Below, piece after piece: positions 7,439 through 36,219 of a DNA stretch of 36,219 nt. The notes under the pieces are model-generated. The model was given only the letters and a program-made list of their open reading frames with translations. It was not told where the DNA came from and made no database searches. Positions within the stretch are counted from its first letter, which is position 1, and every line of letters begins with the position of its first letter. Made by a program: the position numbers and the translations under genes. Source of the stretch: a virus; the IMG/VR virus record IMGVR_UViG_3300008110_000274, positions 1 through 36,219 of that record. One strand, given 5' to 3'.

Positions 7439-10234
7439 ATGAATTTATACACTGGTGTAGTTGAAAATCGAGATGACCCATTAAGAGTTGGTCGTTGTCA
7501 GGTTCGTATTCTTGGTGTGCACACTGAGGATAAAAATGTATTACCAACAAATGATTTACCATGGGCATATCCAATGCAACCTGTTACCTCTGCTTCAGTT
7601 AGTGGTATTGGTTGGTCGCCAACTGGTCCAGTTACTGGAACATGGGTTGTTATTATGTTTCGTGACGAAGATCAACAGCAGCCAATTATGCTTGGTACTA
7701 TTGGTGGTATCCCACAGACAAAAGCAGCAGAATTAGCCAAAGAAGAATCAACAGATAACATTCTTGCAACTAATGGTGGTATTTTAACAGACAACTCTGG
7801 CAATCCAGTTACTGATGGAACGGGTAATCCTATTCAAGTCGGCACTGCAGAAGCATCAAGTAAGCCAGTGCCATCCGCACCACCAGCAGCTGCATCACCA
7901 AAACCAGATATAGCTGCACAACCAGTACCAAACAAACCATCAGATGATGTTTTAAAACAAGCGATTCCAACTAAACCACCTCCACAGTCTACATCAAATC
8001 CAACAAAAGCAGAACAAAATATCAAACACTTAATTGAAGCGTGTGATAAAGTTGGATTAAAATCAAAATATGCAAAGTGTGCTATTCTAGGTATTTGTGG
8101 TGGTGAGTCTGGATGGTTACCTGTTGAAGAAGGGTTCTATTATACTAGCGCAGAAACTTTAGCAAAAATTTTTAGATTGACCTTCCCTACAGTAGAATCT
8201 GCACAACCTTATGTTAAATGGCAAGGTACACGAGAAGATTTCTTTAGAAAAATATATTCTCCTCAAGGAAATGGATCATTAGTCGGACACAAAGGTGCAG
8301 ACGATGGAGCGAAGTATTTCGGTCGTGGATTTAATCAGATTACTGGTAAAGCACTGTATACGAAACTGCAAGAATTTTTAAAGAAGAGAGGAATCATAGT
8401 TGACTTTTTGAATAATCCTAAGTCGCTAATTGATGATCCAGCAGTTGCTGCTCTTGCCACTGTTGCGTTTTATGCGTTGTTTGTTAAACACGATCAGAAC
8501 GATCCAGGATATTTTGTGAGTGCATTAAAACGAACTGGTGCTGATGCTAATGGTACTGGATATAAAAAGAAACAGAAATACTATGAGTATTTCCTTGGTG
8601 GTGTTGTAACAGTTGAACCTACCAATAAACCAGCAGCTGATGAACAGAAAACTTACACTAAAGAAGAAGTTAAAGATTTACCACCAGCAAAACAAGCAGC
8701 ATTATTAGAAGATCGTTCATCCTCAACAACAGTTGGTTTCCAAGATCCAGCAGGTAAATATCCACTACGCAATTTAATGGATGAGCCAGACACTAATCGT
8801 CTAGCACGTGGTATAATTAAAGAAACTGCTATTGAGTTTAAAGATTCAACAAGATCAAAGCAGTTACCGATTGCAAATAGTAGCGAAACATGGGAACAAC
8901 CAATTGCTCCATTTGGTGGTAAATATCCATTCTCAAAAGTTTATGAATCCGAGTCTGGTCATCTGTTTATTCTGGATGATACACCAACTCATGAGAATAT
9001 CAGTCTGTATCATCGTCAAGGATCTTTCTTAGATATTGACGCAAATGGAACACAAGTTAATAAAATTGTTGGTGATGGGTATACAATTATAGACAAAAAT
9101 GGATCGATATTTATCGGTGGTCGTTGTATACTAACAGTTGGAAATGGTGTGAGCATTCTGGTTCAAGGTAATGCTGACATAGAAGTTGAAGGACAATCTG
9201 TAATTAATCTTAAGAATCAAGCAGACATATCTGTAGCTAACGATTTAAATCTATCAGTTGGTGGTGATATGAAAACTAAAGTTGCTGGTAACTATACATT
9301 GGAAGCAGCTAACTTAGGATTTAAAACTGCTGGAAACATGAATGCAATAGCAGATGGTAATACGTTGATAACAGGTTCTGGATCTATGCAACTTCAGAGT
9401 GATGGTAATATGCGTCTTGATTACTCTCGTGGCGATTTTGGTAATGGAGCAGAAAAGGCAACAGTCGAGGCAACTGGATTATCCTTTATTGAATCTGGTG
9501 ACGCTAGACCAAATCAGTTTGGATATCTATCGACTCCTGTTCGTCCATCCCCACCTGTTGATTTAAAGTATGCACTTGAAGAAGAGAATGAAGCAGTTAT
9601 TAATGATTATGTATCAAATCCAGAAAAATATTATAATCCAAAAGCTGAAGAAAATGGAGTTAAACCAAATCTTCCACCGACACCAAAAGATTCTGGGCAA
9701 GGTAAGAGTTTAAAGTCTGATGCCCCTGCTGGTGATATACCGACGTTCTTACAGAAACAATTAGAATTAACTAAACAAAACTTCTACTGGAGAGAAACAG
9801 GTATGGGTGGTAATCCATCCAATTCAAATATTGTTCGCATCTGGATTGATCTTGGATATCCAAATCAAGCATACTGGAGATCAGATCAAACTCCATGGTG
9901 TATGGGTTTCGTTGCTTGGACACTAAAGCAATGTGGTTATCGTTACTATCAAACTGCATCATCTTGGGCAATTAGAGACTCAGCGTCTAAATTTGGTGCA
10001 ACAAAAGTTAGCCCAGCTGAAGCACAAGGTGGAGATATTGTTCTTTGGGATTTCGGACACGTTAACTTTGTTTATACTGCAACCAATGGTAAACTAACTT
10101 TTGTTGGTGGTAATCAGGGTGGTAAATCTAGAGACAATAATCCAAACTCTGGTGATGTAACAATTAGTTGGCCAAGTGGATGGACGCAAGCAAAGGGTGG
10201 TATCGTTGGAATCTGGCGACCAAGTAAGACATAA
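7439..10234 (+). CDS. 5: Baseplate spike gp5 with GH19-like and CHAP lytic domains
   Basis: 931 aa, compared with 575 in T4. Residues 1-105 are the gp5 OB-fold (YTGVVENRDDPLRVGRCQVR, MFRDEDQQQPIMLGTIGG). Residues about 140-195 are a Pro/Ala-rich linker. About 200-390 is a lysozyme-like glycoside hydrolase of GH19/chitinase type, with catalytic-type E223 in CGGESGW and the substrate-groove motif YFGRGFNQITG near 295. Residues about 450-530 resemble the gp5 region before the helix. Residues about 540-665 are the triple beta-helix needle (repeats such as SVGGDMKTKVAGNYTLEA). About 760-931 is a CHAP-type amidase or endopeptidase of the TIGR02594 pattern, with C821 in PWCMGF, H874 in GHVNF and the following VGGNQGG. 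The protein would puncture the outer membrane and digest peptidoglycan. Two hydrolases on one spike is the unusual part. Confidence 0.88.
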   Translation: MNLYTGVVENRDDPLRVGRCQVRILGVHTEDKNVLPTNDLPWAYPMQPVTSASVSGIGWSPTGPVTGTWVVIMFRDEDQQQPIMLGTIGGIPQTKAAELAKEESTDNILATNGGILTDNSGNPVTDGTGNPIQVGTAEASSKPVPSAPPAAASPKPDIAAQPVPNKPSDDVLKQAIPTKPPPQSTSNPTKAEQNIKHLIEACDKVGLKSKYAKCAILGICGGESGWLPVEEGFYYTSAETLAKIFRLTFPTVESAQPYVKWQGTREDFFRKIYSPQGNGSLVGHKGADDGAKYFGRGFNQITGKALYTKLQEFLKKRGIIVDFLNNPKSLIDDPAVAALATVAFYALFVKHDQNDPGYFVSALKRTGADANGTGYKKKQKYYEYFLGGVVTVEPTNKPAADEQKTYTKEEVKDLPPAKQAALLEDRSSSTTVGFQDPAGKYPLRNLMDEPDTNRLARGIIKETAIEFKDSTRSKQLPIANSSETWEQPIAPFGGKYPFSKVYESESGHLFILDDTPTHENISLYHRQGSFLDIDANGTQVNKIVGDGYTIIDKNGSIFIGGRCILTVGNGVSILVQGNADIEVEGQSVINLKNQADISVANDLNLSVGGDMKTKVAGNYTLEAANLGFKTAGNMNAIADGNTLITGSGSMQLQSDGNMRLDYSRGDFGNGAEKATVEATGLSFIESGDARPNQFGYLSTPVRPSPPVDLKYALEEENEAVINDYVSNPEKYYNPKAEENGVKPNLPPTPKDSGQGKSLKSDAPAGDIPTFLQKQLELTKQNFYWRETGMGGNPSNSNIVRIWIDLGYPNQAYWRSDQTPWCMGFVAWTLKQCGYRYYQTASSWAIRDSASKFGATKVSPAEAQGGDIVLWDFGHVNFVYTATNGKLTFVGGNQGGKSRDNNPNSGDVTISWPSGWTQAKGGIVGIWRPSKT

Positions 10235-19763: not shown

Positions 19764-22700
19764 ATGATAGACTTCAACACAGAACCATATAATGACGATT
19801 TTGACGAGAATAATAAATTCTATCGAATCTTATTTCGACCAAGTTTCGCTGTGCAAGCTAGAGAACTTACACAGATGCAAACGATTCTTCAGAATCAAGT
19901 TAAGTATCATGGAGACCACATCTTTAAACAAGGTGCAATGGTTATTCCAGGACAGGTTTCTATTGATTCAGAAGTGCACTATGTTAAATTGCAATCAACA
20001 TACGCTGGTGCGGTAGTTGAAACATATGTTAATGAATTAGAAGGATTGACTGTTGTTGGTCAAAGTGGTCTAACTGCGCAAGTTATTAAAGTAGAAAATG
20101 CTTCAGGTGCAGATTTTGCAACTCTTTATGTTCGTTACACTAACTCTGGTGACAATAATACAACAAAGACTTTTGCTGATGATGAGATTATTACTCCACA
20201 GGATGCTTTACTTTCTGCATATACTGTACAGGCAATTTCTTCAGGTGCAATAGGAACTGGTTCAACTGCAACAGTTGAACGTGGTGTATACTATATCAAT
20301 GGTCATTTTGTTTTAGTTGATAATCAAACTATTACACTAGACAAATATTCAAACACTCCAACATATCGTGTTGGATTAACTGTAGAAGAAAAACTAATTA
20401 CTCCAGAAGATTCAGGTTATGAAATGCTTCTGGACAATGCACAGAACAGCTATAACTTTGCTGCTCCAGGTGCGCATCGATACTATATTGACTTAATCTT
20501 ATCTAAAAAAGGTATTAATGCTACTGATGATGTAGACTTCGTTGAGTTACTTCGTGTAGATGAAGGACAAATCAAGCGTCACGTAACTAGAACAGAATAC
20601 TCTCAAATAGAAAAAACTTTGGCTCGTCGTACATTTGATGAGTCTGGTAATTACACTGTTCGTAGTTTCCCTATTGATATTCGTGAACATCGCAATAATA
20701 ATCGTGGTGCGTGGGATGATAACACTGCTTATCTCATCGGAGACGTTGTAACTAGTGGGACTAATTCAGCAGGCAACCCAATCACATATGTTGCAAAAAA
20801 TTCAGCAACATCAATTAACATCGCTCCAGTTCATACATCTGGTTCTGCTTATGATGGTCCAGGATCTACTGGTGTTCAGTGGGAATATAATCAAAACCCA
20901 TATTACAATCGTGGTATCTATACACCAGAAGATGGCGGAGATGAAGCAAAACTTGCTGTTGGTTTAGAACCAGGAAAAGCATATGTGCAGGGTTATGAGA
21001 TTGAAAAAGTTTCAACGGAGTATGTTCCAGTAGATAAATCAAGAACATTCGTACAGGTTGATAATGCAATTATCCCTGCGACTGTTGGTAACTACATTCT
21101 TATCACAAACGTAAATAATCTTCCACCTGTAAATACATTTGGTAGAGTTACACTTTATGATCGTTTGACTGGCTCAGGTGGTCGTGGTTCTTCTGCTGGA
21201 ACTGCAGTTGGTACAGCACGTGTTCGTTTTATCGAATGGCATAATGGTACAATTGGTACGAATGCAGCGATTTACAAACTAGGTTTGTTTGATGTTCAAT
21301 TAAATGCTGGTGCAACTACTCGTAAGATTAAATCATTCTTCTTTGATAATGGAGATGCTAATCTTAATTTTACTGCAGATATCGAACCAGAGTACAATCG
21401 TTTAATCGGTGCGGTTACAGCTGCTGGTGTACAAAATGTCACAGGTGCAGGAACTTCTTTCCAGACTGATCTTGTAGTTGGTGACTATGTTCGTCTAGGT
21501 ACTGACATTCGTAGAGTTACAGCAGTTAATTCACAAACATCTATTACAGTTGATGCTAACGTAACTGTTACTGGTGCAACTATTGATAGAGTAATAACTA
21601 CTGTTCGTGAACCAGAAAATGTTTCTTTATTATATCAATTCCCATACTATGCTATTAAATCTGTAAGAAGTGCACTTGGTACAAACGATACTGCATACAC
21701 AGTTTATGAAAGATTTGCAGGAACTACATCTTCAGGTTCTGGTGGTACTTGCACATTAACCGCTACAACATCAAGTGGAACATTTGCCTCTGCAGCAGAA
21801 ACTGACAACTATATTTTAGTTAATAATGATTCTACTTCAGGTGGTGCTATTGTAGCACCAAATAGCATCACTGTATCTGGATCAACTGTTCAATTTGTTT
21901 TACCAGATACATATGCTTCTACTAACTTTATTATTATCGGTGCTGTTAATAAGACTGGCGCAACACTAACTGAGAAATCCAAAACTTTAACAACTACAAC
22001 AGTCACATTTAGCACACAAGCTGCTGCAACTAAGAGTGAATTACTTTTAGGTAAAGCAGATGGTTATAGATTGATTAGTGTTAAGATGGATACTGGAACA
22101 TTTGCCTCTCCATCTGGATCTTATTCTGTAGATATTTTAGATCGTTACGATTTTGATTCTGGACAAAGATCTACCCATTACGATGTCGCAAGATTAGTTT
22201 TAAGATCCTCTTACGCTGCACCTAGTGCTCCTGTTCAAGTTGTTTATGAGTACTTCCAGCATTCTACTGGAGATTACTTTACTGTAAACTCATACCCAGC
22301 AAATGTAGCATATGGAAGCATTCCAATTTACCAAGGAATTTCTCTAAGAGATTTTATTGACTTTAGACCACGTATTTCTGATGATGGTGTAGATTTTGCC
22401 AGCTCTGGCTCTTCAATCTCTTTAGTTCCAAAACGTGGTATTGATATTCGTGCTGACTTCCAATACTACTTGGCACGTAAGACTAAGATTGCTATCGACT
22501 TTAATGGTCAATTTTTTGCGATTGATGGTGTTCCTTCTCTAATTCCTGGAGAGCCATTAGATCCATCTCTTGGTATGATTCTTTATGATCTATCGTTAGA
22601 ACCATACACATTCGGTACTGCAAGTAATAATGTTGTTATTAACTCTCATGACAATAAGCGTTACACGATGCGTGATATTGGTAAACTTGAAAAACGAATC

Positions 22701-25700
22701 GATAACCTAGAGTACTATACTTCTCTTTCTTTACTGGAACAACAAACAGAATCATTAGACATTGTTGACTCTACAGGTGAGTCAAGATTTAAGAATGGTT
22801 TTATTGTAGATGGTTTTACAGGACATAATACTGGTGATGTTACATCTGCAGATTATCTCTGTTCTATTGATATGGAAAAGGCAGAACTTCGTCCATTCTA
22901 TTCGATGCAGAACGTAAATCTTATTGAGAAAAATTCTAATAATACTCAACGCACTGCAAGTAACTATCAATTATATGGTGATGTCATCACACTTCCAGTG
23001 ATTGAACATGTTCCATTAGTTAAACAAGATTATGCATCTCGTTTAGAAAACATCAATCCGTTTGCTATTTTTACATTCTTAGGTAACGTAACTCTGACTC
23101 CAGCAACAGATGATTGGTTTGAAGTTGATCGTCGTCCAGATATCGTAAACGAAGTTGAAGGTAACTTCAATGTGATGAAGAATATTGCTGAAAGATCTGG
23201 AGTTCTTGGAACAGTGTGGAACGCATGGCAGACTCAGTGGTCTGGTGCTTCTACTACAACTAGAACAGTATTTACTGCTGGTGATAACTGGGCATCTGGT
23301 CAAGGAAATGTTCGTATTGGCATCGGTGAAATGCAAGCACGATTTGGCGGTCCAGGATCTAATCACTGGAATGCTCGACAGGTAACAGTTGATATGACTG
23401 CAACTCAAGTTGGTCAAACTCGTACTGGTACTAGAACATCTATAGTTCAGAAAATTGATCGTCAAGTTGTAGCAGATCGTGTTCTTTCTACCGCAGCTAT
23501 CCCATACATTCGATCAAGAAATATTCTAGTACAAGTTAAAGGATTAAAACCAAACACACGTTTCTATCCATTCTTTGACGACATCGATGTTACTGCACAG
23601 TCAACTCCAGCTTCAAAGATTGTTTACAATCCGACTGGTGCGACCGCAGCTGCTAAACTTACTACTCACAACTCTTTTGATGACTCTACAAATGTCGGTG
23701 GTCTATCAACTGATGTAGCACGTCGTATTGCTGGTGATACACAGGTATGTTTAAATCGTGGTGACGTAGTCACTGGACAAACTTCTGGTGCAACTGCTGT
23801 TATTGTTGGTAAAGAATATAACCCAGATACTGATGTATATTCACTATTTGTTTCAAATATTAGAGGAACATTTACTGCGGGTGAAACTTTTGTTGGTTCG
23901 ATATCTGGAGCGACAGGTGCATATACTTCTATCACCACAAACACTGTAGGTGGTAATCTAGTTACAAACTTCAGCGGTGATTTAAATCTATTGTTTAATA
24001 TTCCAAACACTGAGGCATTACGTTTCCGTACTGGTGCACGTGAGTTTAAACTTGTAGATACAGACCAAGCCCTTGGAGCGTTTACTTCTCGTGGTCGTGG
24101 TATCTATCGTGCGCAGGGTATCCTTGAAACTCGTCAGCAAACTGTTAATGCAGTTCGTAATGCCGAACTTGTTGAAGAACAGATTCGTGACAATCGAGTT
24201 ATTGTTCAGACTTCTGATCGTATTGTTGCAGATACTGGTTGGTGGGATCCACTTGCACAGACATTCCTTGTTGAGCAAAAGGGTGGTGCATTCTTAACTA
24301 AAGTTGATATCTTCTTTGCATCTAAAGATCCAGCTATTCCTGTGAATCTAGAGATTCGTGAGGTTGTAAACGGATATCCAGGAAAATTAGTTTTACCATT
24401 CTCTAAAGTATCAATTAAACCAGAACAAGTAAATCTATCAGCTACTACAGTTATGGTTGATGGTGTTTCTGTACCAAAGTACGATACTCCAACTACATTT
24501 AACTTCCCAAGTCCAGTGTACGTGCAAAACAACACTGAGTATGCGATTATTCTGTCATCAGACTCAAATAACTACAAAGTTTGGATCTCTCAGATTGGAG
24601 ATCAGATTCCAGGATCTTCTCGTACAATTTCTGAACAGCCATATATGGGTGTATTCTTCAAATCACAGAACGCATCTACTTGGACTGCTGATCAAACTCA
24701 AGATTTGAAGTTTACGATTTATCGTGCTAAGTTTGAAACTAATACTGTTGGTAACATCGAGTTTGTGAATGATGTTCTACCATATCAGACTTTAGACTTT
24801 GATCCAGTAGAAACTAGAACTGGTGTGAGTAAGATTCGTGTATATCAACAGAATCATGGTATGCCTGCTAGTTCACGTGTTGTAATTACTGATTCGAATG
24901 CTACTCGTTTAACTGGTGTAGCTGGAACAGGAACAATTACTACTTCTACATCAAACACTACCGTAACTGGTGTAGGAACATCGTTTACTACACAACTGGT
25001 AGTTGGTTCTGCTCTATTTAATAATGCTGGAACTTATGTTGGTAAGATTGCTTCTATTTCAAGTAATACTTCTGCAACTCTTGCAGCTAACGCTATCGTT
25101 GCATTGGCAGGAACTGCGTTTAAATATACAGCACCAATCAATGGTATCCCAACTCCAGAATTCTACACCACTCATATTATCAGTGATGTAGATCTAGATT
25201 CTTACTGCATTACTGTAGCTTCAAATGCTACTGCGACTGGATATGCTGGTGGTACTACTATTCGTGCAACTCGTAATATTCAATACGATGAAGTGCAGCC
25301 ACTTGTTCAAGTTCAGACATTCTCTGAAACTATGACTACATTTGGTATTAAGACTACATCTGGTAAGTCTGTAGACAGCACAACACAGACTCCTTATGCT
25401 CTTGATAGTACGTTTGCCGATATTCTTGCAAACGAAAACAATCCGTTCTTCACTCCAAGAATGGTCGCTTCTGAGGTTAACGAAACAAATAGTCTAAGTG
25501 GTAATAAGTCTGTTACATTTAACGTAACAATGGAATCTTCTAATGATTCTCTATCACCAATCCTAGACACTCAGAGAACTTCTCTGGTAGCTATCAGCAA
25601 TAAGGTAACTAGCCCATCTGAGACTAATACAAACGTAGCAAATCTAGACGATAGTACTTTACTATCGAGTAATACAAATATTGCATTTAATGGTACTACA

Positions 25701-26297
25701 GAAGCTATCACTTCTACAAATGCCACTGCTCGTCAGATTCTACAGACTATTCCTGTGGGTAAGTATGTAACGATTTCTGGTACAACTTCTGGAACAAATG
25801 ACGGAACATTCCTAGTGACTGGTGTTTCTGATGATGGAACTACAACTTCTGTGACTCTATCTACTAACCTAACAACACAGTCAGCTGGTGCTTCTGTAAC
25901 AATCAAACTTCGTGAGATGTTTGTTGCGGAGATTGCTCCAGTTGGAAGCACGACTTACAGCAAGTATCTGACTAAGAAAGTGAACCTAGCAAATGCTTCT
26001 ACTTTTGCTAGAATTCGTTTTGCTGCAAGTATTCCTGCAGACGCTGCAATTGAAGTTTACTATAAAGTAGGTGCAGTTGGTTCTAATGCTGAGTTTAGCA
26101 CTCTGAACTGGACTGCATTAAGTTCTGATGCTCCAATCGTTTATGCACAGCAGGGAAGTGATAGATTTACTGATATGACTTTCTCAACTGGTAATATTAC
26201 AGCATTTGAGTCTATTCAGATTAAACTTGTGATGAAGTCTACAAATACATCGGCTGTACCAAAGATTAAAGATCTTCGTGTAATTGCGTGTGCTTAA
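19764..26297 (+). CDS. Giant DUF4815 baseplate-periphery protein (gp9/gp10 position)
   Basis: 2177 aa, the longest complete gene of the window. The start (FNTEPYNDDFDENNKFYRIL, FRPSFAVQARELTQMQTILQ, QGAMVIPGQV) is the DUF4815 pattern. A ligand-binding-like module lies at about 315-375 (AWDDNTAYLIGDVV to STGVQWEY). Two GxGTSFxTxLVVG modules lie at about 546-610 and 1715-1790. The core has DTGWWDPLAQTFLVEQKGGA, VNLEIREVVNGYPGKL and TWTADQTQDLKFTIYRAKF. The C-terminus ends in a jelly-roll-like domain (FESIQIKLVMKSTN, PKIKDLRVIACA). Following gp8 it occupies the T4 gp9-gp10 slot, so it may link wedges to fibres. T4 gp10 similarity is not visible by eye. No frameshift is seen. Confidence 0.75.
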   Translation: MIDFNTEPYNDDFDENNKFYRILFRPSFAVQARELTQMQTILQNQVKYHGDHIFKQGAMVIPGQVSIDSEVHYVKLQSTYAGAVVETYVNELEGLTVVGQSGLTAQVIKVENASGADFATLYVRYTNSGDNNTTKTFADDEIITPQDALLSAYTVQAISSGAIGTGSTATVERGVYYINGHFVLVDNQTITLDKYSNTPTYRVGLTVEEKLITPEDSGYEMLLDNAQNSYNFAAPGAHRYYIDLILSKKGINATDDVDFVELLRVDEGQIKRHVTRTEYSQIEKTLARRTFDESGNYTVRSFPIDIREHRNNNRGAWDDNTAYLIGDVVTSGTNSAGNPITYVAKNSATSINIAPVHTSGSAYDGPGSTGVQWEYNQNPYYNRGIYTPEDGGDEAKLAVGLEPGKAYVQGYEIEKVSTEYVPVDKSRTFVQVDNAIIPATVGNYILITNVNNLPPVNTFGRVTLYDRLTGSGGRGSSAGTAVGTARVRFIEWHNGTIGTNAAIYKLGLFDVQLNAGATTRKIKSFFFDNGDANLNFTADIEPEYNRLIGAVTAAGVQNVTGAGTSFQTDLVVGDYVRLGTDIRRVTAVNSQTSITVDANVTVTGATIDRVITTVREPENVSLLYQFPYYAIKSVRSALGTNDTAYTVYERFAGTTSSGSGGTCTLTATTSSGTFASAAETDNYILVNNDSTSGGAIVAPNSITVSGSTVQFVLPDTYASTNFIIIGAVNKTGATLTEKSKTLTTTTVTFSTQAAATKSELLLGKADGYRLISVKMDTGTFASPSGSYSVDILDRYDFDSGQRSTHYDVARLVLRSSYAAPSAPVQVVYEYFQHSTGDYFTVNSYPANVAYGSIPIYQGISLRDFIDFRPRISDDGVDFASSGSSISLVPKRGIDIRADFQYYLARKTKIAIDFNGQFFAIDGVPSLIPGEPLDPSLGMILYDLSLEPYTFGTASNNVVINSHDNKRYTMRDIGKLEKRIDNLEYYTSLSLLEQQTESLDIVDSTGESRFKNGFIVDGFTGHNTGDVTSADYLCSIDMEKAELRPFYSMQNVNLIEKNSNNTQRTASNYQLYGDVITLPVIEHVPLVKQDYASRLENINPFAIFTFLGNVTLTPATDDWFEVDRRPDIVNEVEGNFNVMKNIAERSGVLGTVWNAWQTQWSGASTTTRTVFTAGDNWASGQGNVRIGIGEMQARFGGPGSNHWNARQVTVDMTATQVGQTRTGTRTSIVQKIDRQVVADRVLSTAAIPYIRSRNILVQVKGLKPNTRFYPFFDDIDVTAQSTPASKIVYNPTGATAAAKLTTHNSFDDSTNVGGLSTDVARRIAGDTQVCLNRGDVVTGQTSGATAVIVGKEYNPDTDVYSLFVSNIRGTFTAGETFVGSISGATGAYTSITTNTVGGNLVTNFSGDLNLLFNIPNTEALRFRTGAREFKLVDTDQALGAFTSRGRGIYRAQGILETRQQTVNAVRNAELVEEQIRDNRVIVQTSDRIVADTGWWDPLAQTFLVEQKGGAFLTKVDIFFASKDPAIPVNLEIREVVNGYPGKLVLPFSKVSIKPEQVNLSATTVMVDGVSVPKYDTPTTFNFPSPVYVQNNTEYAIILSSDSNNYKVWISQIGDQIPGSSRTISEQPYMGVFFKSQNASTWTADQTQDLKFTIYRAKFETNTVGNIEFVNDVLPYQTLDFDPVETRTGVSKIRVYQQNHGMPASSRVVITDSNATRLTGVAGTGTITTSTSNTTVTGVGTSFTTQLVVGSALFNNAGTYVGKIASISSNTSATLAANAIVALAGTAFKYTAPINGIPTPEFYTTHIISDVDLDSYCITVASNATATGYAGGTTIRATRNIQYDEVQPLVQVQTFSETMTTFGIKTTSGKSVDSTTQTPYALDSTFADILANENNPFFTPRMVASEVNETNSLSGNKSVTFNVTMESSNDSLSPILDTQRTSLVAISNKVTSPSETNTNVANLDDSTLLSSNTNIAFNGTTEAITSTNATARQILQTIPVGKYVTISGTTSGTNDGTFLVTGVSDDGTTTSVTLSTNLTTQSAGASVTIKLREMFVAEIAPVGSTTYSKYLTKKVNLANASTFARIRFAASIPADAAIEVYYKVGAVGSNAEFSTLNWTALSSDAPIVYAQQGSDRFTDMTFSTGNITAFESIQIKLVMKSTNTSAVPKIKDLRVIACA

Positions 26298-26545: not shown

Positions 26546-27502
26546 ATGGCAACACTTGTCCTAAGATCGGTTAAGGGTAGTCCACTCACTAACACTGAGG
26601 TGGATACAAACTTCACTAATCTAAATAACGATAAATTAGAAACTTCTGCCTATACAGCTGCAGATGTTCTATCTAAACTTTTAACTGTTGATGGTGCTGG
26701 TTCTGGTCTAGATGCAGATACGCTAGATGGTTATAATCAAGATACCGCAAATACGAACAATACTATTGTTCGCCGAGATGGCACAGGTAACATTAACGTA
26801 TCTACCATTAACGGAAACCTCACTGGTACTGCTTCTATTGCAACACAAGTCACTTTAGTTGCAACTGACACTACCAACGCTACTCACTACATCAACTTCA
26901 CCGATGCAGCGACTGGTAATGAGAACATTAGAACAGACACTGGGTTAACATACAATCCATCAACAGGTGTACTTTCTACAACTTCTTTCACTGGTGCTGG
27001 TACTGGTCTTACTGGAACTGCTTCCTCTCTTAGTATTGGTGGTAACGCTGCAACAGCAACTTCAGCGACTAACTCTACCAATGCAGCAAACCTAGCACTC
27101 ACTGACGATACTACCACTAACGCTACTCACTACCCACTATTAGGTGATGCGACTTCTGGTAACGATGCGATTAAAGTTTCTAGCACTAAGCTGACATTTA
27201 ATCCATCTACTGGTACTCTATCCGCAACTATTTTTAGCGGATCTGGTGCTTCAATTACATCTCTAAATGCTGGTAATATTTCAGCTGGTACTTTAGCAGT
27301 TGCTCGAGGTGGTACTAATGCTACAGCTACACCAACTGCTGGTGCTGTTGCTTACGGTACAGGTAGTGCATATGCATTTACACTAGCTGGTTCAGCAGGA
27401 CAAATTTTAGTATCGAATGGTAGCAGTGCCCCAACATGGCAAACAAATACTGCTGCTTCAACAGGTAAAGCCATCGCCATGGCAATCGTTTTCGGAGGAT
27501 AA
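26546..27502 (+). CDS. Tail fibre protein of GGT-repeat type
   Basis: 318 aa, almost wholly Ser/Thr/Gly/Asn-rich. The N-terminus (LVLRSVKGSPLTNTEVDTNF, then TNLNNDKLET) is the attachment start frequent in fibre proteins. Two related units contain NATHYxxxxDAxxGN followed by YNPSTGVLSTTSFTGAG or FNPSTGTLSATIFSGSG, so there is an internal duplication. The end ARGGTNATATPTAGAVAYGT and GSAGQILVSNGSSAPTWQTN is the common fibre tip motif. It should be a trimeric, host-facing fibre or short tail fibre. A late promoter and a good AAGGA site precede it. It lacks a visible endosialidase or chaperone domain. Confidence 0.8.
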   Translation: MATLVLRSVKGSPLTNTEVDTNFTNLNNDKLETSAYTAADVLSKLLTVDGAGSGLDADTLDGYNQDTANTNNTIVRRDGTGNINVSTINGNLTGTASIATQVTLVATDTTNATHYINFTDAATGNENIRTDTGLTYNPSTGVLSTTSFTGAGTGLTGTASSLSIGGNAATATSATNSTNAANLALTDDTTTNATHYPLLGDATSGNDAIKVSSTKLTFNPSTGTLSATIFSGSGASITSLNAGNISAGTLAVARGGTNATATPTAGAVAYGTGSAYAFTLAGSAGQILVSNGSSAPTWQTNTAASTGKAIAMAIVFGG

Positions 27503-27506
27503 TTAA

Positions 27507-27911
27507 ATGGCAGCACCAAATATTGTCAACGTCGCCGACATTAAAGGCAACATTGCATTTCAATCGTTAACCAATACGAATGATAATGCTCTTATTAATA
27601 ACGCAGCATCTTCAAACACTGTTTTGAAGGTAAACAACATTTTCGTGTCAAACGTAAATGGTGTTTCTGCAGCAACTATTACACTTTCTTTCCGTTCTGC
27701 AGCTAACGCTGTAACGAATGGTACTTTAGCAACTGCTTCTTCAGGCACTGCTTATCGTGTAGCATATCAGATTTCTGTTCCACCAAATACAACTTTAATG
27801 CTGTTGGATAAATCTGGTTCTATTTACTTACCAGAAAACACATCACTATCAGTTCAAGCTGGTACTGCAGGTTTCTTAGAGGTTGTTGGTTCATTCGAAA
27901 CAATTTCTTAA
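27507..27911 (+). CDS. 134-aa fibre-associated structural protein
   Basis: A small beta-rich protein: residues 5-20 NIVNVADIKGNIAFQS, then VLKVNNIFVSNVNGVSAATI, YQISVPPNTTLMLLDKSGSI, YLPENTSLSVQAGTAGFLEV and a final VVGSFETIS. The layout resembles small jelly-roll proteins seen next to phage fibre genes, but I cannot name a family with certainty. It starts four bases after the fibre stop and is followed, after 28 bases, by the LamG fibre. It may be a fibre-bound head-domain or attachment protein; this is inferred from place. Confidence 0.7.
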   Translation: MAAPNIVNVADIKGNIAFQSLTNTNDNALINNAASSNTVLKVNNIFVSNVNGVSAATITLSFRSAANAVTNGTLATASSGTAYRVAYQISVPPNTTLMLLDKSGSIYLPENTSLSVQAGTAGFLEVVGSFETIS

Positions 27912-27939
27912 TTTTGAATTAGTGGCTGGATAGGACAAA

Positions 27940-30030
27940 ATGTCTAAACAACGTACAGGTAATTTTATTGCTGGTGGAAACCCACAAGTTCCATCATTAA
28001 CAACAAATAATGGCGTCTTTGACTCCAATGAAGTCTACACAGCCGTAAATAATAATGCATGGCAACCATCAGGTAGTGGCACATACGAGTTTGCTAGATC
28101 TTTAAGATTTAGAGCAAGTGCTGTTACAACTTTAACCAAAACATTTTCTAATGGAAATACACAGAGATTCACATATTCGTTTTGGGTTAAAAAAGGATAT
28201 CAGAACACAGACATGGAAATTTTTTCTAGTGCTGGTCCAAATCATCCTGGTGGTGCAGATATTTCTTATTTTGGTTTTGCTGGAGGTAATGAATTACATT
28301 TTTATCACTATCCAAATGGTGGTTCTGGATTTTGGCTTATAAAAAGTCATTTACTACGTGATCACTCTGCTTGGTATCATGTAGTACTATCATGTGATAC
28401 CACACAAGCTGTTGCAGCAAACAGAGCAAGAATGTGGATAAATGGTGTTGAGCAGATAAAAACAGATAATACATATCCTGGTCTAAACAGCACTTCATAT
28501 TACTTTAGTACTAGACAACAAATGTGGGGACAAGAAGACGGAAGAAATAGATACCCATTTGATGGTTATCTAACAGAAGTTCATGCTATCGATGGTCAAG
28601 CATTAGATCAAACATACTTCGGTTATTTTGATAATCTAGGTATTTGGCAACCAAAGCGTTATACAGGTTCGTATGGAACAAATGGATATTATTTTCCATT
28701 CACAGACAATCAAACTACACTTAATCTTGGTAGAAACTTTTCTGGTTCAAATTATTTTACATACTCTGAGCAGTTTGATAATGGTGCATGGTCAAAATAT
28801 CAAAGCAGCGTTACTGCTAATGCAACAACTGCGCCAGATGGAACTACTACTGCAGATAAGTTAGTGGGGACTACTGGAACTACTGGAGATCACCAAGTAT
28901 CACAATCTGGTATAGTGACTGCTGTGAATGGTGGAGTTTATACATTTTCTTGCTATGCCAAAGCAGCAGAAAGATCTGTTTTTAGATTGTATCTATTAAA
29001 ACGTGATGGTGCTACTTACGCATATTCAGATTTTAATTTAACTGATGGCACGCTTGATCATAGTCAAGCTGGACCATTCGCTGGTGCAATCCCTACAATA
29101 ACTTCTGTTGGTAATGGATGGTATCGTTGTGCCATTACAGTTGATATAGGAACTGGTGCTGGTGGTGTTACCGCAATTTGTTCATATGCATCAGCTACTG
29201 GAGAAACTGCTGGATGGGGTCTTTTTATCTGGGGTGCGCAACTTAATCGTGGAACAACTGTAGATCGTTATATTCAAACAGTAGCATCTGCTTCCAATAA
29301 CGACTGGACAACAAACAACTTTTCTCTTACTGCTGGTAATACATACGACTCAATGGTTGATTCACCAACCAACGTATTTACAACAGCGACAGATATCGGT
29401 GGTGTAGTTCCAGGTAACTACTGCACTTGGAATCCTGTTAACTCTGCAAATGTGACTCTTACAAACGGTAATCTTGGTTTAACTAATTATAATGCTGGTG
29501 GTTCAAATCAAACTGCTATTGGAACTATAGGTGTTACATCTGGAAAATGGTATTTTGAATATGTTGTAGACACTTCGTCTATTCCAGGTGGACACGCTTC
29601 ATCAATTGGTGTTGTTGTAAATAGAACTTTAGTACCAGCTAGTGTTACTCCGTTTGGTGGTCAATCTAATAATCTTGTTATTTACGGTAATCTTGGAAGA
29701 GTTTATAAAGCAGGAAGTGTCATTAATGATTTATTTTCTTGGCCAGTTGGAAGTGTATTACAGATTGCACTAGATGTTGATGAGCAAAAAATTTGGTTTG
29801 GTGTCGGTGGAACTTGGTACAATTCTGGTAATCCTGCTACTGGTGTTAATCCATCTAATACTACTACTAGTCTAGGAACTGGATTACATGAAATTATAAC
29901 AGCTGATGGTGCTTCTGTAGAAACAAATACTAACACAGTAAATTTCGGACAACGTCCATTTGCATATGCTCCACCAGCAGGATTTAAATCACTAAACACA
30001 ACTAATCTACAAGCACTTGGCTCTGATTAA
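27940..30030 (+). CDS. LamG/SPRY-like tail fibre, 5-prime part of a split gene
   Basis: 696 aa. The N-terminus is short (QRTGNFIAGGNPQVP). Residues about 48-235 are a LamG (concanavalin-like) domain: ARSLRFRAS, FTYSFWVKKG, AWYHVVLSCDTTQAVAANRA, RMWINGVEQ and GYLTEVHAIDGQALD. About 267-445 is a carbohydrate-binding-like domain (FTYSEQFDNGAWSKY to YIQTVAS). About 490-670 is a SPRY-like domain (GKWYFEYVVD, NFGQRPFAYAPPAGFKSLN). These domains suggest glycan recognition. The frame stops at 30028-30030 just where the giant fibre continues into another domain. The coding sense goes on in another frame from 30027, so this is probably the larger part of a 995-aa gene broken by a one-base deletion. A GGA-containing site (GGATAGGAC) precedes the ATG. 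Confidence 0.8.
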   Translation: MSKQRTGNFIAGGNPQVPSLTTNNGVFDSNEVYTAVNNNAWQPSGSGTYEFARSLRFRASAVTTLTKTFSNGNTQRFTYSFWVKKGYQNTDMEIFSSAGPNHPGGADISYFGFAGGNELHFYHYPNGGSGFWLIKSHLLRDHSAWYHVVLSCDTTQAVAANRARMWINGVEQIKTDNTYPGLNSTSYYFSTRQQMWGQEDGRNRYPFDGYLTEVHAIDGQALDQTYFGYFDNLGIWQPKRYTGSYGTNGYYFPFTDNQTTLNLGRNFSGSNYFTYSEQFDNGAWSKYQSSVTANATTAPDGTTTADKLVGTTGTTGDHQVSQSGIVTAVNGGVYTFSCYAKAAERSVFRLYLLKRDGATYAYSDFNLTDGTLDHSQAGPFAGAIPTITSVGNGWYRCAITVDIGTGAGGVTAICSYASATGETAGWGLFIWGAQLNRGTTVDRYIQTVASASNNDWTTNNFSLTAGNTYDSMVDSPTNVFTTATDIGGVVPGNYCTWNPVNSANVTLTNGNLGLTNYNAGGSNQTAIGTIGVTSGKWYFEYVVDTSSIPGGHASSIGVVVNRTLVPASVTPFGGQSNNLVIYGNLGRVYKAGSVINDLFSWPVGSVLQIALDVDEQKIWFGVGGTWYNSGNPATGVNPSNTTTSLGTGLHEIITADGASVETNTNTVNFGQRPFAYAPPAGFKSLNTTNLQALGSD

Positions 30031-30032
30031 AA
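30025..30032 (+). other. Probable single-base deletion (frameshift) splitting the LamG fibre
   Basis: The bases are GATTAAAA, giving Asp-stop. With one more T (GATTTAAAA) the frame would read Leu-Lys-Phe-Gln-Pro-Asp and join 27940-30030 with the downstream frame as one protein of 995 aa. The downstream frame opens exactly here, after a TGA at 30024, and has no ATG near. No classical slippery heptamer in the needed phase is seen. Confidence 0.75.
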
Positions 30033-30143
30033 TTCCAACCAGATTTAGTTATCTTTAAAAATAGAGATGGGTCAGGAAATCGTAGATGGTCTTGGTTTGA
30101 TTCTGTTCGTGGACCAAATTCACATTTATCATCTCAATCAGCT

Positions 30144-30926
30144 GTGACCGATGGTGAAGTAAATACTCAGACTGATTTACTAACATCGTTCACATCAGAT
30201 GGTTTTACTGTCGGTGCAGATGCTGGTTTATATGGCACAAATAATCTTAATGAACGCTGGGTTCAGTGGGCTTGGAAAAGATCTGTAACTGCTGGATTTG
30301 ATATAGTTACTCATACTGGTAATGGCGGATCTCAAACATTTAATCATGGATTAGGGGCTGCTCCTGCTATGATGATATTTAAATCCAGAAATATAAATGA
30401 GAACTGGTATATATACCATAGAAGTGTTGGTGCTACTGCTGGATTAAGTTTTACCACTAGTGCTGCTTCTACTAGCGTTAACTATTGGGCAAATGTTACT
30501 CCAAGCGCATCAACATACTCAGTTGGTCCAAATTTCACAAATGGTACTACTTATATTGGTTATCTCTGGGCAGAAGTTCCTGGATTTAGTAAATTTGGTT
30601 CGTATACAGGTAATGGATCTACAGATGGTCCATTTGTCTACACAGGATTTAGACCCGCATTTATATTGTATAAATGCACCTCAATAGGTCCAGCTAGTTG
30701 GATTTTACACGACACAAGGATAAACAATAATAATGCAAGTACAGTGCATTTAAGACCAGACGCCAGCGGTGGCGATGACGCTGGTGCAAACGAAACTATT
30801 GATATTTTATCTAATGGATTTAAACATCGAGGTGTGAGCAATTACAACGCAAACTCTTCTGGTCAAACTTACATTTATATGGCACTTGCAGAGTCACCAT
30901 TCGCACTAAATAATAGAGCAAGATAA
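30144..30926 (+). CDS. LamG fibre, 3-prime part, out of frame (pseudogene half or phase-variant end)
   Basis: The nearest start is a GTG at 30144, without a convincing ribosome site, giving 260 aa. The homologous sense extends back to 30027 (KFQPDLVIFKNRDGSGNRRW, WFDSVRG), in line with the giant fibre where PDLIWIKNRS and DTVRG occur in one frame. The rest holds the exterior domain: NLNERWVQWAWKRSVTAGFD, SQTFNHGLGAAPAMMIFKSR, WAEVPGFSKFGSYTGNGST, VYTGFRPAFILYK, and an end YIYMALAESPFALNNRAR typical of these fibres. It is most likely the C-terminus of the preceding gene rather than an independent protein. Confidence 0.65.
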   Translation: MTDGEVNTQTDLLTSFTSDGFTVGADAGLYGTNNLNERWVQWAWKRSVTAGFDIVTHTGNGGSQTFNHGLGAAPAMMIFKSRNINENWYIYHRSVGATAGLSFTTSAASTSVNYWANVTPSASTYSVGPNFTNGTTYIGYLWAEVPGFSKFGSYTGNGSTDGPFVYTGFRPAFILYKCTSIGPASWILHDTRINNNNASTVHLRPDASGGDDAGANETIDILSNGFKHRGVSNYNANSSGQTYIYMALAESPFALNNRAR

Positions 30927-30940
30927 AAGAGAAAACAAAG

Positions 30941-31477
30941 ATGACAACTTACTATCTAAACGGAAGTCCGCTCGAAGAAGGTGCGGACATTACAATTAAT
31001 GGATTTACATATCCTTACTCATGGTTAGAAGGAACTTCTCCTTCTGTTCGTGCTTCATTGGGTATTGAAAAAGCTGGCGATATCAACTACGATGAAAGAT
31101 ATTATAATAGTGTTGGTGTACCAAAACCATTAGAAGATCGTGAAGAATTAGATGATGACGGTAATCCAGCTTATATTAAAGTTTGGGATGAAGAAACTAA
31201 GATGATGATTGATTCAGATGCACGTCTTGTTTCATATGGATTAAAAACCACTTGTCTTAGACAAATTAAAAACAAAACCAACGAACTTCTAAAGCCAACA
31301 GATTTTTATATTATTCGCAATGAAGTTGAAGAATTACAAATTCCAGAATCAGTTTCCACATATCGTTCAGAAGTAATTGCAGAGTCAACTCGTTTACAAA
31401 ATGCAATACCATCAGTCGAATCTGTTGAAGAGTTAATTGAACTTATGAATAGTGTCAATTTTCCTAGAGTCGAATAA
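30941..31477 (+). CDS. Tail-fibre assembly chaperone-like protein
   Basis: 178 aa. It has a short start (YYLNGSPLEEGADITINGFT), then WLEGTSPSVRASLGIEKAGD with a DERYY motif, and a helical C-terminal half: LRQIKNKTNELLKPTDFYII, RNEVEELQIPESVSTYRSEV and a last VESVEELIELMNSVNFPRVE. The LLxxTDxYxxRxxExxxxxP...YR pattern is the one seen in fibre-assembly proteins (DUF4376/Caudo_TAP-like). Standing between two LamG fibre genes, it probably helps fold or attach them, or sits at the fibre base. It starts 14 bases after the previous stop. Confidence 0.7.
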   Translation: MTTYYLNGSPLEEGADITINGFTYPYSWLEGTSPSVRASLGIEKAGDINYDERYYNSVGVPKPLEDREELDDDGNPAYIKVWDEETKMMIDSDARLVSYGLKTTCLRQIKNKTNELLKPTDFYIIRNEVEELQIPESVSTYRSEVIAESTRLQNAIPSVESVEELIELMNSVNFPRVE

Positions 31478-31480
31478 ATA
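31472..31480 (+). promoter_or_regulatory. Candidate late promoter before the giant fibre (GAATAAATA)
   Basis: GAATAAATA followed by AAAG overlaps the end of the chaperone-like gene (stop at 31475-31477) and lies 29 bases before the ATG at 31510. It repeats the 13-base motif seen at 19722. An AAAGGT ribosome site stands about ten bases before the ATG. Confidence 0.5.
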
Positions 31481-31509
31481 AAAGTATAATCTTAATCAAA
31501 GGTACATAA

Positions 31510-34500
31510 ATGGTTCGTCGTTATACTGGTGGTTTTATTTCTGCTAAAGAACAAGCGTCTGATTCAAACACAGCAAATGGTGTATTCACTCTTAGTGAAC
31601 ACCAAGAAAGAACTGCACTTGGTAATTTTCCAACTGGTCGTTGGACTCCATCTCGTTCATTAAGATTTAGAGCACAGGCAAGTGCAAATTTAACTAGAAC
31701 ACCAAGTGTAACTAGTAATCAAACAACATTTACTTGGAGCGGTTGGTACAAACTAACCGAGTTATTAAATGCAAACCCAAGATTTTATGTAGGAAGAACT
31801 GGAGCAAACTTTCCAGCATTTGGTATAGCATTTGGTGGATCTAGTGGTAATTTTTCTACAGATCAGTATACAACTGGTGGTGCGCTACAAATGAGTGTAG
31901 TTAGCACTGGAGTATTTCGTGATCCATCTGCTTGGTATCATGTAGTGGCAGCGTTTGATACAACTAAAGCTATTGCTTCAGAAAGAGTTAAATTATATGT
32001 TAATGGAGTGCAAATCACTTCATTTAGTACAGCATCATATCCTGCACAAAACCTCGCTTTAAACGTAAATACTACAAATACGCAAATTATCGGTGCTGAT
32101 CCCGCAAATAGTTCGTATGCTGGTGGATATCTCTCAGAAATTAATTTTATTGATGGACAACAATTAGATCCATCTCAATTTGGATTTACAGATCCAGAAA
32201 CTGGTACTTGGGTTCCAAAACAATATACTGGTACATATGGTAGTAATGGTTTCTACTTGCCATTCTCAAATAATGGTACTACAACTGCTCTTGGTTTGGA
32301 TATGTCTCCATCTAAGAATATGTTAACATATTCTGAACAGATGGATAATGCTGCATGGTCTAAAACTAACTTAAATGTAACAACGAACACAGCAAACGAT
32401 CCAATTAGTAGTACACTTACTGTAGATAAGTTAATTCCAACAGCTACAAATGGTGAACATACAATAAATCAGGGTACAACTGTAACATCTTCAACATATT
32501 ATACTTACTCTGTTTATGCTAAGGCAGATGGATATAATTACATTCAGACGAATGAGTCTGCAGTCACAAATGCTCAAGCAGTGTTTGATTTGTCGGCAGG
32601 CACTGCAGCTACAGCTACAAGTAATAATCAATCACTATATGATGCTACATCTAGAATTCAAAGTGTAGGGAATGGATGGTATCGCTGCTCAGTAACATAT
32701 AAAACTGGTTCTGCGCAAACAGGCATGACCTTTAATACATACATTTTAAATAATAGCGCAGCATCAAGTTATGCAGGAAATGGCACTTCTGGTGTATTGT
32801 TCTGGGGCGCAATGATTAACGTCGGTACAACTGCAAACACTTACGTACAAACTGTTGCGTCTGCTGTTGTTAATAACTGGACTGCAAATAATTTCTCAGT
32901 AAATCCAGGAACAACATACGACTCAATGGTCGATGTTCCAGGTATTGCAGCAGTAGCATCACAAAACGATGTTGGTGGTGTTACTCGTGGTAATTATGCT
33001 ACACTAAATTCGATATATGCATCCAACGGAAGTTCTTATACAAATGGAAATTTACAAGCCACTACTGATGGTTCTAGTGGTGTTCAAGAATTAAGATCAA
33101 CGATTGAAATACCTACTAGTGGCAAATGGTATTGCGAAATGCACCTGTCAGATTTTTGCACATCTCCTAGCGGAACAGCACGTGCTACGTATGGAGTTCA
33201 TACATCAGCAGCTGGACAAAGTCTAGGTTTAAGTTTTAGAACAGAAAGTTCAGCATCTGGCAGTCTTACTTCAGCTGCTATTGTAAAAGACGGAGTGATC
33301 CAAACATCGGTAACAGTTCCATCAATAAATGATGTATTGGGTTTTGCAATAGATTCTGACGCTGGTTCTATTCAAATCTTTCGACAAGGTTCGTCCATAT
33401 ATTCTGGTTCTTATAGTTTTATATCAGGCAATTTATTCATAGGTGTGTCTGGTGATAGTAGCGGTGAAGGTGGTGCACCACGTTCAACAACAACTATATT
33501 TAACTTCGGTCAGCGAGCATTTACATATACTCCACCTGCTGGATTTAAATCTCTTTGCACAACTAATCTACCTAATCCGATTATCAAACGTCCATCAGAT
33601 CATTTTAATGTTAAAACATGGACTGGTAATGGCAATTCACAAACTATTGGTACAACAAATAAACAAACATCATCATATCAAATTTCTAGATCTTTAAGAT
33701 TTAGAGATTCTGTGTTGCCACATTTGACAAGAACTCCTACTTCCAACGGAAGTCCAGTTAAATCTACGTTTAGTGCTTGGATTAAAACTACAGGGGCGCA
33801 TACTCTTTCAGAATCACAAGTATTGTTTGCTGCAGGAACTGCTGTAGGATTCCAAGCAACTCTTTATATTACTACAAATAGACAATTATCTGTATACGTC
33901 GCTGATAATAGCATTGTAAGAAATAATATTACTACTGTTACAAATATTCCAAATAATACTTGGACTCATATTACTTGGATTTATGATGATTCTTCAGCTT
34001 TACCAAATACTGAAAGAAGTCGTTTATACATAAATGGTGCTCGTGCTCAAATATCCAGTTCTCCAACATATCCTCCAGGAAATGCAGGATATGTATTAAA
34101 TAGTACTTCTTATCCAAACGCTATAGGTAAAAGTGCATTTCAGTCTTCATCATATTATACTGGATATATGGCTGAGGTTAACTATGTAGATGGAAATGCA
34201 TTAGAACCATCTAATTTTGGTCAATATGATGCTAATAATAATTGGGTTCCAACTCGTTATGCTGGAACTTATGGCACTAATGGGTTCTATTTACCATTTA
34301 GTGATAATTCTAGTTTAGATACTCTTGGATTCGATAGAAGTTCATCATCGGCAGAACTAATTACCAATGGGTCTTTCCCTACTAATGTGAGTGGATGGAC
34401 AGTAGGTGCTGCTGTTAGTGGTAGCCCATCAATCACATGGGTGACTGGTGCTGCTAGAATTGCTAACTCTGCTAATAACGGAGTGATGTACTATCAAGCT

Positions 34501-36219
34501 ATCCCTACAACTATAGGAACAACATATTACGCATCTTGTAATGTATATAATATTAGTATTGGTGGATCATCAAGAATAGTTGCTTTGCAAAAATCAGACA
34601 ATACTTCGAACAATTCAAATTTAGTTACATTGGCAACTAGAACACAGGCTGATGGTAATGGTTCATTAAGAGGAACTTTTACAGCGACTGCCACAACAAC
34701 ATATATTTTTATAAATGCAGATATTCTTGGTACTGGTACACAGGGTGCAGACTTTGATAATATCTCTGTCTCTGAAGTCGCTTATAAAAATAACTGGAGT
34801 TTAAATAACTTCTCTACTACAGCTGGCATCACATATGACAGCATGCTAGATTCTCCAACAGATTACGATGATGGATCTGGAAATATTCGTGGTAATTATC
34901 CAATATTTAATACTAATACAGCATTTTCTGGACATAATAGTAGTTTTGCTCTGGCTGGTGGTCCAACTTTTACTAATGCAGGCACTCGTGTTTCTAGAAC
35001 ACAGAATGATAATAGAGCATTCAGTACATTAAGCATGTCTTCTGGAAAATGGTACTGGGAATTTTTGATCGAGGGTCATACAAGAACTTCACTTGGTATT
35101 AATCTTGCAAGTATTCAAACTATATCTCCATCTGCTGGAGATGAATATGGTTCTCCAGGCATGCATGGTTTAGTTTTTGAGGGTTCTGCTCAATATGCAT
35201 TTTCTAATAAGGTTGGTTCTGCTAACTCAATTACTGCAGTTTCTTACGCTGATGGTAACTGGGCAGTTGGTAATACTATTGGTATAGCATTTGATGCTGA
35301 TAATGGAGAACTTTATTTTAGTAGAAATGGTGTATGGGGTAACTCTGGAAACCCAGCAACAAGAACAAATCCTTTACTTAGAAATATACCTCAAGGTGAA
35401 TATGTAGCTTTATGGGCTGGTGGTGGTGATTATCCAAGTAGTGCCACAGTACAAGGTACTATTAACTTTGGTCAGCGTCCATTCACATATACTCCTCCTG
35501 CAGGATATAAATCATTAAACACTAAAACTCTAAAAGAAGTTGGTGCGTTTAATCTGCCAGACACTTTTGGTAATTATGTAAACACTCCAGATTTAATTTG
35601 GATTAAAAACAGATCAAACACTTATAATCATATTCTGCAAGATACAGTTCGTGGAACTGGTCTATATTCTGATATCACAGCAACTGCACAAAGCACTGTA
35701 ACGACTGGCGTTCAAGCATTTTTACCTAATGGATTCCAAATTGGTTCTATTGCTGGTGGAAATTTAGCTAATGATAGCATAGTAGGATGGACATGGAATC
35801 GTGGTCAAATTCCAGGATTTGATATTGTAAACTATGCTGGTGATGGTGTTGCTGGTAGAAAAGTTCCTCATAATTTAGGTGTGCCTCCTAAATTTATTAT
35901 TGCTAAAAATTTAAGTTCATCAGTAAATTGGATGGTTGGTCATAACAGCGTTGGGTGGACTCATAAAATTGAGGGTTTAAATACAACAACAGGTTCTGCA
36001 GCTAGCTCTCTTGTTTGGAATAATACAGCCCCGTCTTCTACAGATATTACACTAGGTTCTGATTTTAATATTAATTCTCTTGGATATTCCTTTATTGCTT
36101 ATATTTGGGCAGAAGTTCCTGGATTTAGTAGATTTGCTAGTTATATTGGAAATGGAGCAGCAGCTGGTCCGTATGTTTATACTGGTTTCCGTCCAAGATG
36201 GGTTATGATCAAGAGAACA
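31510..36219 (+). CDS. Giant modular LamG/SPRY-like tail fibre, partial (3-prime end beyond window)
   Basis: From the ATG at 31510 (MVRRYTGGFISAKEQASDSN) one frame appears open to the last base, giving 1570 codons without a stop. Two modules follow each other. Unit 1 has LamG (RSLRFRAQASANLTR, AWYHVVAAFDTTKAIASER) at about 50-240, a binding-like domain (LTYSEQMDNAAWSKTN) at 275-455 and a SPRY-like domain up to NFGQRAFTYTPPAGFKSL near 685. Unit 2 has LamG from about 727 (RSLRFRDSVLPHLTR), another binding-like domain near 947 (LITNGSFPTNVSGW) and SPRY-like at about 1127-1330 (SGKWYWEFLIEG, NFGQRPFTYTPPAGYKSL). The last part (PDLIWIKNRS, AEVPGFSRFASYIGNG, VYTGFRPRWVMIK) parallels the preceding fibre. 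By that comparison about 80 residues should remain beyond the window. Function: receptor recognition, inferred. Confidence 0.8.
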   Translation, partial: MVRRYTGGFISAKEQASDSNTANGVFTLSEHQERTALGNFPTGRWTPSRSLRFRAQASANLTRTPSVTSNQTTFTWSGWYKLTELLNANPRFYVGRTGANFPAFGIAFGGSSGNFSTDQYTTGGALQMSVVSTGVFRDPSAWYHVVAAFDTTKAIASERVKLYVNGVQITSFSTASYPAQNLALNVNTTNTQIIGADPANSSYAGGYLSEINFIDGQQLDPSQFGFTDPETGTWVPKQYTGTYGSNGFYLPFSNNGTTTALGLDMSPSKNMLTYSEQMDNAAWSKTNLNVTTNTANDPISSTLTVDKLIPTATNGEHTINQGTTVTSSTYYTYSVYAKADGYNYIQTNESAVTNAQAVFDLSAGTAATATSNNQSLYDATSRIQSVGNGWYRCSVTYKTGSAQTGMTFNTYILNNSAASSYAGNGTSGVLFWGAMINVGTTANTYVQTVASAVVNNWTANNFSVNPGTTYDSMVDVPGIAAVASQNDVGGVTRGNYATLNSIYASNGSSYTNGNLQATTDGSSGVQELRSTIEIPTSGKWYCEMHLSDFCTSPSGTARATYGVHTSAAGQSLGLSFRTESSASGSLTSAAIVKDGVIQTSVTVPSINDVLGFAIDSDAGSIQIFRQGSSIYSGSYSFISGNLFIGVSGDSSGEGGAPRSTTTIFNFGQRAFTYTPPAGFKSLCTTNLPNPIIKRPSDHFNVKTWTGNGNSQTIGTTNKQTSSYQISRSLRFRDSVLPHLTRTPTSNGSPVKSTFSAWIKTTGAHTLSESQVLFAAGTAVGFQATLYITTNRQLSVYVADNSIVRNNITTVTNIPNNTWTHITWIYDDSSALPNTERSRLYINGARAQISSSPTYPPGNAGYVLNSTSYPNAIGKSAFQSSSYYTGYMAEVNYVDGNALEPSNFGQYDANNNWVPTRYAGTYGTNGFYLPFSDNSSLDTLGFDRSSSSAELITNGSFPTNVSGWTVGAAVSGSPSITWVTGAARIANSANNGVMYYQAIPTTIGTTYYASCNVYNISIGGSSRIVALQKSDNTSNNSNLVTLATRTQADGNGSLRGTFTATATTTYIFINADILGTGTQGADFDNISVSEVAYKNNWSLNNFSTTAGITYDSMLDSPTDYDDGSGNIRGNYPIFNTNTAFSGHNSSFALAGGPTFTNAGTRVSRTQNDNRAFSTLSMSSGKWYWEFLIEGHTRTSLGINLASIQTISPSAGDEYGSPGMHGLVFEGSAQYAFSNKVGSANSITAVSYADGNWAVGNTIGIAFDADNGELYFSRNGVWGNSGNPATRTNPLLRNIPQGEYVALWAGGGDYPSSATVQGTINFGQRPFTYTPPAGYKSLNTKTLKEVGAFNLPDTFGNYVNTPDLIWIKNRSNTYNHILQDTVRGTGLYSDITATAQSTVTTGVQAFLPNGFQIGSIAGGNLANDSIVGWTWNRGQIPGFDIVNYAGDGVAGRKVPHNLGVPPKFIIAKNLSSSVNWMVGHNSVGWTHKIEGLNTTTGSAASSLVWNNTAPSSTDITLGSDFNINSLGYSFIAYIWAEVPGFSRFASYIGNGAAAGPYVYTGFRPRWVMIKRT

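Follow-up and report, generated by a model that had tools for sequence, protein, structure and literature searches.

A phage tail-fibre gene probably truncated by an out-of-frame deletion where its SPRY-like region meets its DUF7483 tip

The broken fibre gene and its neighbours

We analyzed a stretch of 36,219 bases from virus record IMGVR_UViG_3300008110_000274 (hereafter, the window), which belongs to a bacterial virus of aquatic type. Among its genes are families of the baseplate wedge, the hub, and the tail tube cap, and we take these baseplate and tail genes to be T4-like. Coding sequence makes up 98% of the window, and no broken gene was seen besides the fibre gene described below. The protein encoded at 19764-26297 (2177 aa) matches DUF4815 at four places along its length.

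The fibre reading frame (27940..30030, plus strand) encodes 696 aa with LamG-like, middle, and SPRY-like regions and ends with Ser-Asp-TAA; a reading of the sequence alone had already given the stop at Asp-TAA. It lies on the same strand as its neighbours, namely a 134-aa gene upstream (27507..27911) that is conserved in relatives and an intact 178-aa gene downstream (30941..31477; MTTYYLNG...), both of which anchor the synteny. Further downstream, a giant fibre paralogue (31510..36219, plus strand; 1570 aa) runs off the window; its domains are Laminin_G_3, SPRY, and a DUF7483 that is in frame behind a naturally short joint. Pfam found no domain in the 696-aa part, even at E 10, and the names LamG and SPRY were taken from the relatives L083, L140, and L146 and from DNA repeats in common with the giant fibre.

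The stop of the 696-aa frame sits just past the conserved joint FGQRPFAYAPPAGFKSLNTTNLQALGS. The junction (30022..30035, plus strand) holds stops of overlapping frames, TGA at 30024-30026 and TAA at 30028-30030, and only 11 nt (30022-30032) separate the LQALG codons from the F codon of FQPD. The sequence-only reading had also placed the continuing sense in the -1 frame, starting at 30027 and without an ATG close by, and this was borne out: the frame opens right behind the TGA and runs for 299 codons to the stop at 30924-30926 (30027..30926, plus strand). There are no stops over this stretch in the -1 frame, compared with 17 and 32 in the other two frames. No ATG occurs in its first 70 codons, and the sole conceivable starts are ATC at 30051 and GTG at 30144.

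Positions 30027-30923 match DUF7483 (PF24299) at E 3.2e-80 and 270.2 bits, above the curated cut-off of 27 bits, over profile positions 24-330 of 330, and the remnant retains the C-terminal end AESPFALNNRAR known from relatives. By sequence comparison, the remnant is homologous sense and not a chance open frame. Each half matches its own part of the PHROG family phrog_19943 (438-685 and 921-1225 at best), which supports the earlier claim of one fibre gene now split by a frame change; the 5' part is also assigned to phrog_10080.

A complete DUF7483 begins at profile position 1, and the first 23 positions are absent from the remnant. The DUF7483 of the giant fibre also lacks its beginning, starting at profile position 26 with the first 25 positions absent, yet it is in frame. 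The missing start of the remnant is thus evidence of damage and not proof of it, and since the giant fibre has a short in-frame joint, a short joint alone is no defect. In the smaller fibre, the joint and the first 23 DUF7483 positions are absent, the frame is broken, and no canonical start lies near the beginning of the remnant. Comparison of the DUF7483 fold with solved structures was uninformative, giving a best VIA-align Z of 6.2 and weak Foldseek rows of low TM-score. Literature searches found no paper on DUF7483 by name, none joining LamG, SPRY, and phage tail fiber, and none joining Pelagibacter phage tail fiber, lectin, and Methylophilales.

The joint between SPRY and DUF7483 in relatives

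A search with the downstream neighbour gene returned eight loci, among them the L083 contig once more; with the near-identical L142 and L143 counted once, they represent seven distinct contigs. The spacing from LQAxG to FxPD was 33, 33, 33, 34, 34, 34, or 35 codons in all seven (that of L144 was read by eye from the translation), giving a joint of 99-105 nt versus 11 nt in the window. The window thus lacks 88, 91, or 94 nt; all three values have the form 3n+1, which also accounts for the frame change. DUF7483 covers profile positions 1-330 or 2-330 in L083, L140, and L146 versus 24-330 in the window. The fibre is a single open reading frame in six of the seven contigs; that of L142/L143 is interrupted at a point further upstream, where a small gene is inserted and the fibre then restarts on its own.

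Such a small gene (M-A/S-HFAKLDENNIV or similar) lies inside the fibre in L139 (~7660-8040), L142 (2886-3254), L144 (7144-7515), and L145 (7162-7566), and also in L143. It follows a domain ending in TSETVTF, and the fibre restarts with its own start just behind it. In L139, L142, L144, and L145, this site is another recurrent point of clean splitting.

The likeness of the junction to that of the giant fibre, also proposed from the sequence alone, holds in part. The PD-L...K-N-R motif is common to both, but the giant-fibre joint VG-AFNLPDTFGNYVNT-PD has 14 residues (42 nt, in frame), whereas the smaller fibre has 17 nt between LG and the P of PD, 25 nt short of this shortest intact joint in the window. 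The giant fibres of the window (35500-35620), L140, L142/L143, and L144 show a short SPRY-DUF7483 joint with the near-fixed wording VG..NLPD..GN.VN.PD, unlike the long joint of the smaller fibre.

The closest relative, L083 (IMGVR_UViG_3300021963_000966), has the same neighbours in the same order, and its fibre matches residues 1-695 with 69% identity in the best segment. It differs in having an intact 1037-aa reading frame, a full joint, and DUF7483 positions 1-330. DNA identity between the two is ~70-95% per 100-column block from 27507 to ~29380 and drops to ~38-65% in the SPRY region; 31 consecutive identical bases follow from 29960, just before the junction. Identity is low again inside DUF7483 and recovers near the gene end. 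Against L083, the stretch 27507-31477 is thus a mosaic, with diverged SPRY and DUF7483 regions flanked by islands of conservation that lie ahead of the junction and at the gene end. Among the best 80 of 96 relatives, no close intact parent of the tip was found, with whole-piece identity of 41-44% at best and at most 50% in partial matches; the length of the deletion is therefore estimated from the relatives. A scan of genome contigs for relatives outside viral contigs gave 13 pattern matches with no relative among them, and the exact 22-base junction occurred in no other viral contig of the collection, which may lack close records of the window, and once in the window's own record, which is the junction itself.

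The DUF7483 domain of L083 was modeled with AlphaFold from 29 sequences (mean pLDDT 87.1). Strands 24-30 and 37-40 fall among the residues that the window lacks (~11-42 of this domain), and the blocks holding them have pLDDT of 95-96. According to this model, the loss comprises the domain joint and the first two predicted beta-strands of DUF7483, so that the beginning of the tip domain, and not merely a spacer, is gone.

DUF7483 starts were then surveyed in 141 loci and the window, counting alignments of E 1e-10 or better that include the FxPD anchor and leaving out copies without that part. This gave 171 DUF7483-like starts in 115 sources, or 150 non-redundant starts, with at least 120 open codons upstream of FxPD in 107, five running off the contig, and 38 closed by a stop. 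An ATG lies at least 31 codons before FxPD in 37 of these 38, many of them immediately after a SPRY-type gene whose end reads NLAEYG-stop or similar; the 38th is the window, with four open codons and no start. No start-less DUF7483 piece was found among the other surveyed starts.

Explanations for the break

These results suggest that the fibre gene has probably suffered an out-of-frame deletion of ~88-94 nt (3n+1) between the SPRY-like region and the DUF7483 tip, with loss of the tip. The fibre made by the phage would then be 696 aa long and stop after the SPRY region, and the DUF7483 remnant would be left untranslated. The deletion appears young, because the 299 remnant codons are still open. 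It may have arisen by illegitimate recombination (an imprecise exchange) or as a short deletion where two modules meet, because its position is the 3' edge of a conserved DNA island and the domain that follows is diverged. Loss of function had been one of the options raised from the sequence alone, and loss of the tip is its best reading. The giant fibre downstream still has a DUF7483. A promoter inside the gene gave no signal (12 promoter-like sites in 27400-31600 versus 15.3, sd 4.2, in shuffles).

The other options raised were one missing T, whether through a sequencing error or through a phase-variable switch in a T/A run. It is true arithmetically that a one-base change gives a continuous frame of 995 aa. 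However, the loss of a single base from a short run, as error or as reversible switch, would leave unaccounted ~30 codons that are present in all seven distinct same-position relatives and hold two predicted strands of the tip domain, and we consider it very unlikely. A plain base-call error is unlikely because so many codons are missing. The switch fares no better: the junction runs are only TT and AAAA, not a long homopolymer or tandem repeat, and slippage in them cannot restore ~30 codons. Since the domain joint itself is missing, no slippage switch is needed.

Metagenome assemblers stumble at mosaic places, and tail-fibre modules are mosaic among these relatives. The real gene may therefore be intact, with the break created when reads of two co-occurring fibre variants were joined or a hypervariable stretch was dropped; the fully open remnant with a C-terminal end as in relatives would fit this. 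A misjoin, however, normally requires that the joined sequences have a word in common whose length is roughly the assembler's k, whereas the longest word common to the junction stretch 29960-30090 and the rest of the window has 14 nt, and matches of 30010-30045 to any locus examined reach no more than 14 nt. The window also shows no second gene that we saw to be broken, which speaks against an assembly artefact; we regard such an artefact as unlikely, though it deserves serious weight. Much less credible is a natural gene fission, in which the two parts have become, or are turning into, separate proteins like those of the isolates HTVC011P, Greip, and HTVC202P. The same seam and order occur in many relatives, but the 37 other stop-bounded DUF7483 frames have the upstream ATG that the window lacks, and the DUF7483 genes of the three isolates keep profile position 1 whereas the first positions are gone in the window. 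A start at GTG 30144 would cost 39 further residues, and no ribosome-binding site was seen before it by eye. Recoding is the most improbable of all and borders on negligible: ribosomes would shift by -1, or hop from GAT 30025 to GAT 30042, to give a minor full-length form. By eye, the stop stands directly behind a possible take-off codon and the frame of the landing codon fits, but there is no X-XXY-YYZ slippery heptamer ahead of the stop (codons GGC TCT GAT TAA), the hop would lose the first part of the FxPD motif, and no such arrangement was present in any surveyed relative.

The best reading is thus a gene broken or shortened in an ordinary way by a deletion, at the point where these pieces are exchanged or kept apart in related viruses, and not a one-letter switch.

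The seam in known phage fibres

The same two fibre parts are found fused (all seven distinct same-position relatives), separate with their own starts (three isolates), or disconnected (the window), which defines a seam. It is possible, as a tentative wider interpretation, that tail fibres of aquatic phages have an evolutionary breakpoint between the SPRY region and DUF7483, where fusion, splitting, and loss of the tip recur. In the window, such a loss would just have happened through an error at the junction, with a copy retained in the giant fibre and, perhaps, a change in which receptor is bound. The seam is useful for annotating such fibres, and DUF7483 can hide under other names. Greip EXVC021P gp2 (L148 2977-4044), annotated as 'SprT-like protease', matches the whole DUF7483 profile at E 5e-136, and its name looks wrong.

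In phage receptor-binding proteins, exchange of tail-fibre modules with other parts near-identical is described in PMC10684548. The mosaic pattern between the window and L083 is the same as that of the domain shuffling described there; the seam in the window, unlike in that description, is out of frame.

DUF7483 serves as a tail-fibre end domain in these phages, and in the window its remnant lacks the first 23 positions and is in a frame unlinked to a start. The Pelagibacter phages HTVC011P, Greip EXVC021P, and HTVC202P have an upstream fibre gene that stops at the same seam as in the window. Pfam detects SPRY in this upstream gene in HTVC011P and Greip but not in HTVC202P; in the window, the assignment is by relatives only. 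The two genes overlap as TAATG in HTVC011P and Greip and are separated by a 9-nt gap in HTVC202P, and in all three phages the DUF7483 gene has its own ATG and matches the profile from position 1. Gene structure in these isolated phages indicates that a fibre ending after SPRY is a natural product, there with DUF7483 as a separate gene, and the truncated 696-aa protein of the window may well work for this reason. The window thus resembles the split pairs in that its upstream gene ends after the SPRY-like region, and differs from them in that its DUF7483 has no start codon of its own.
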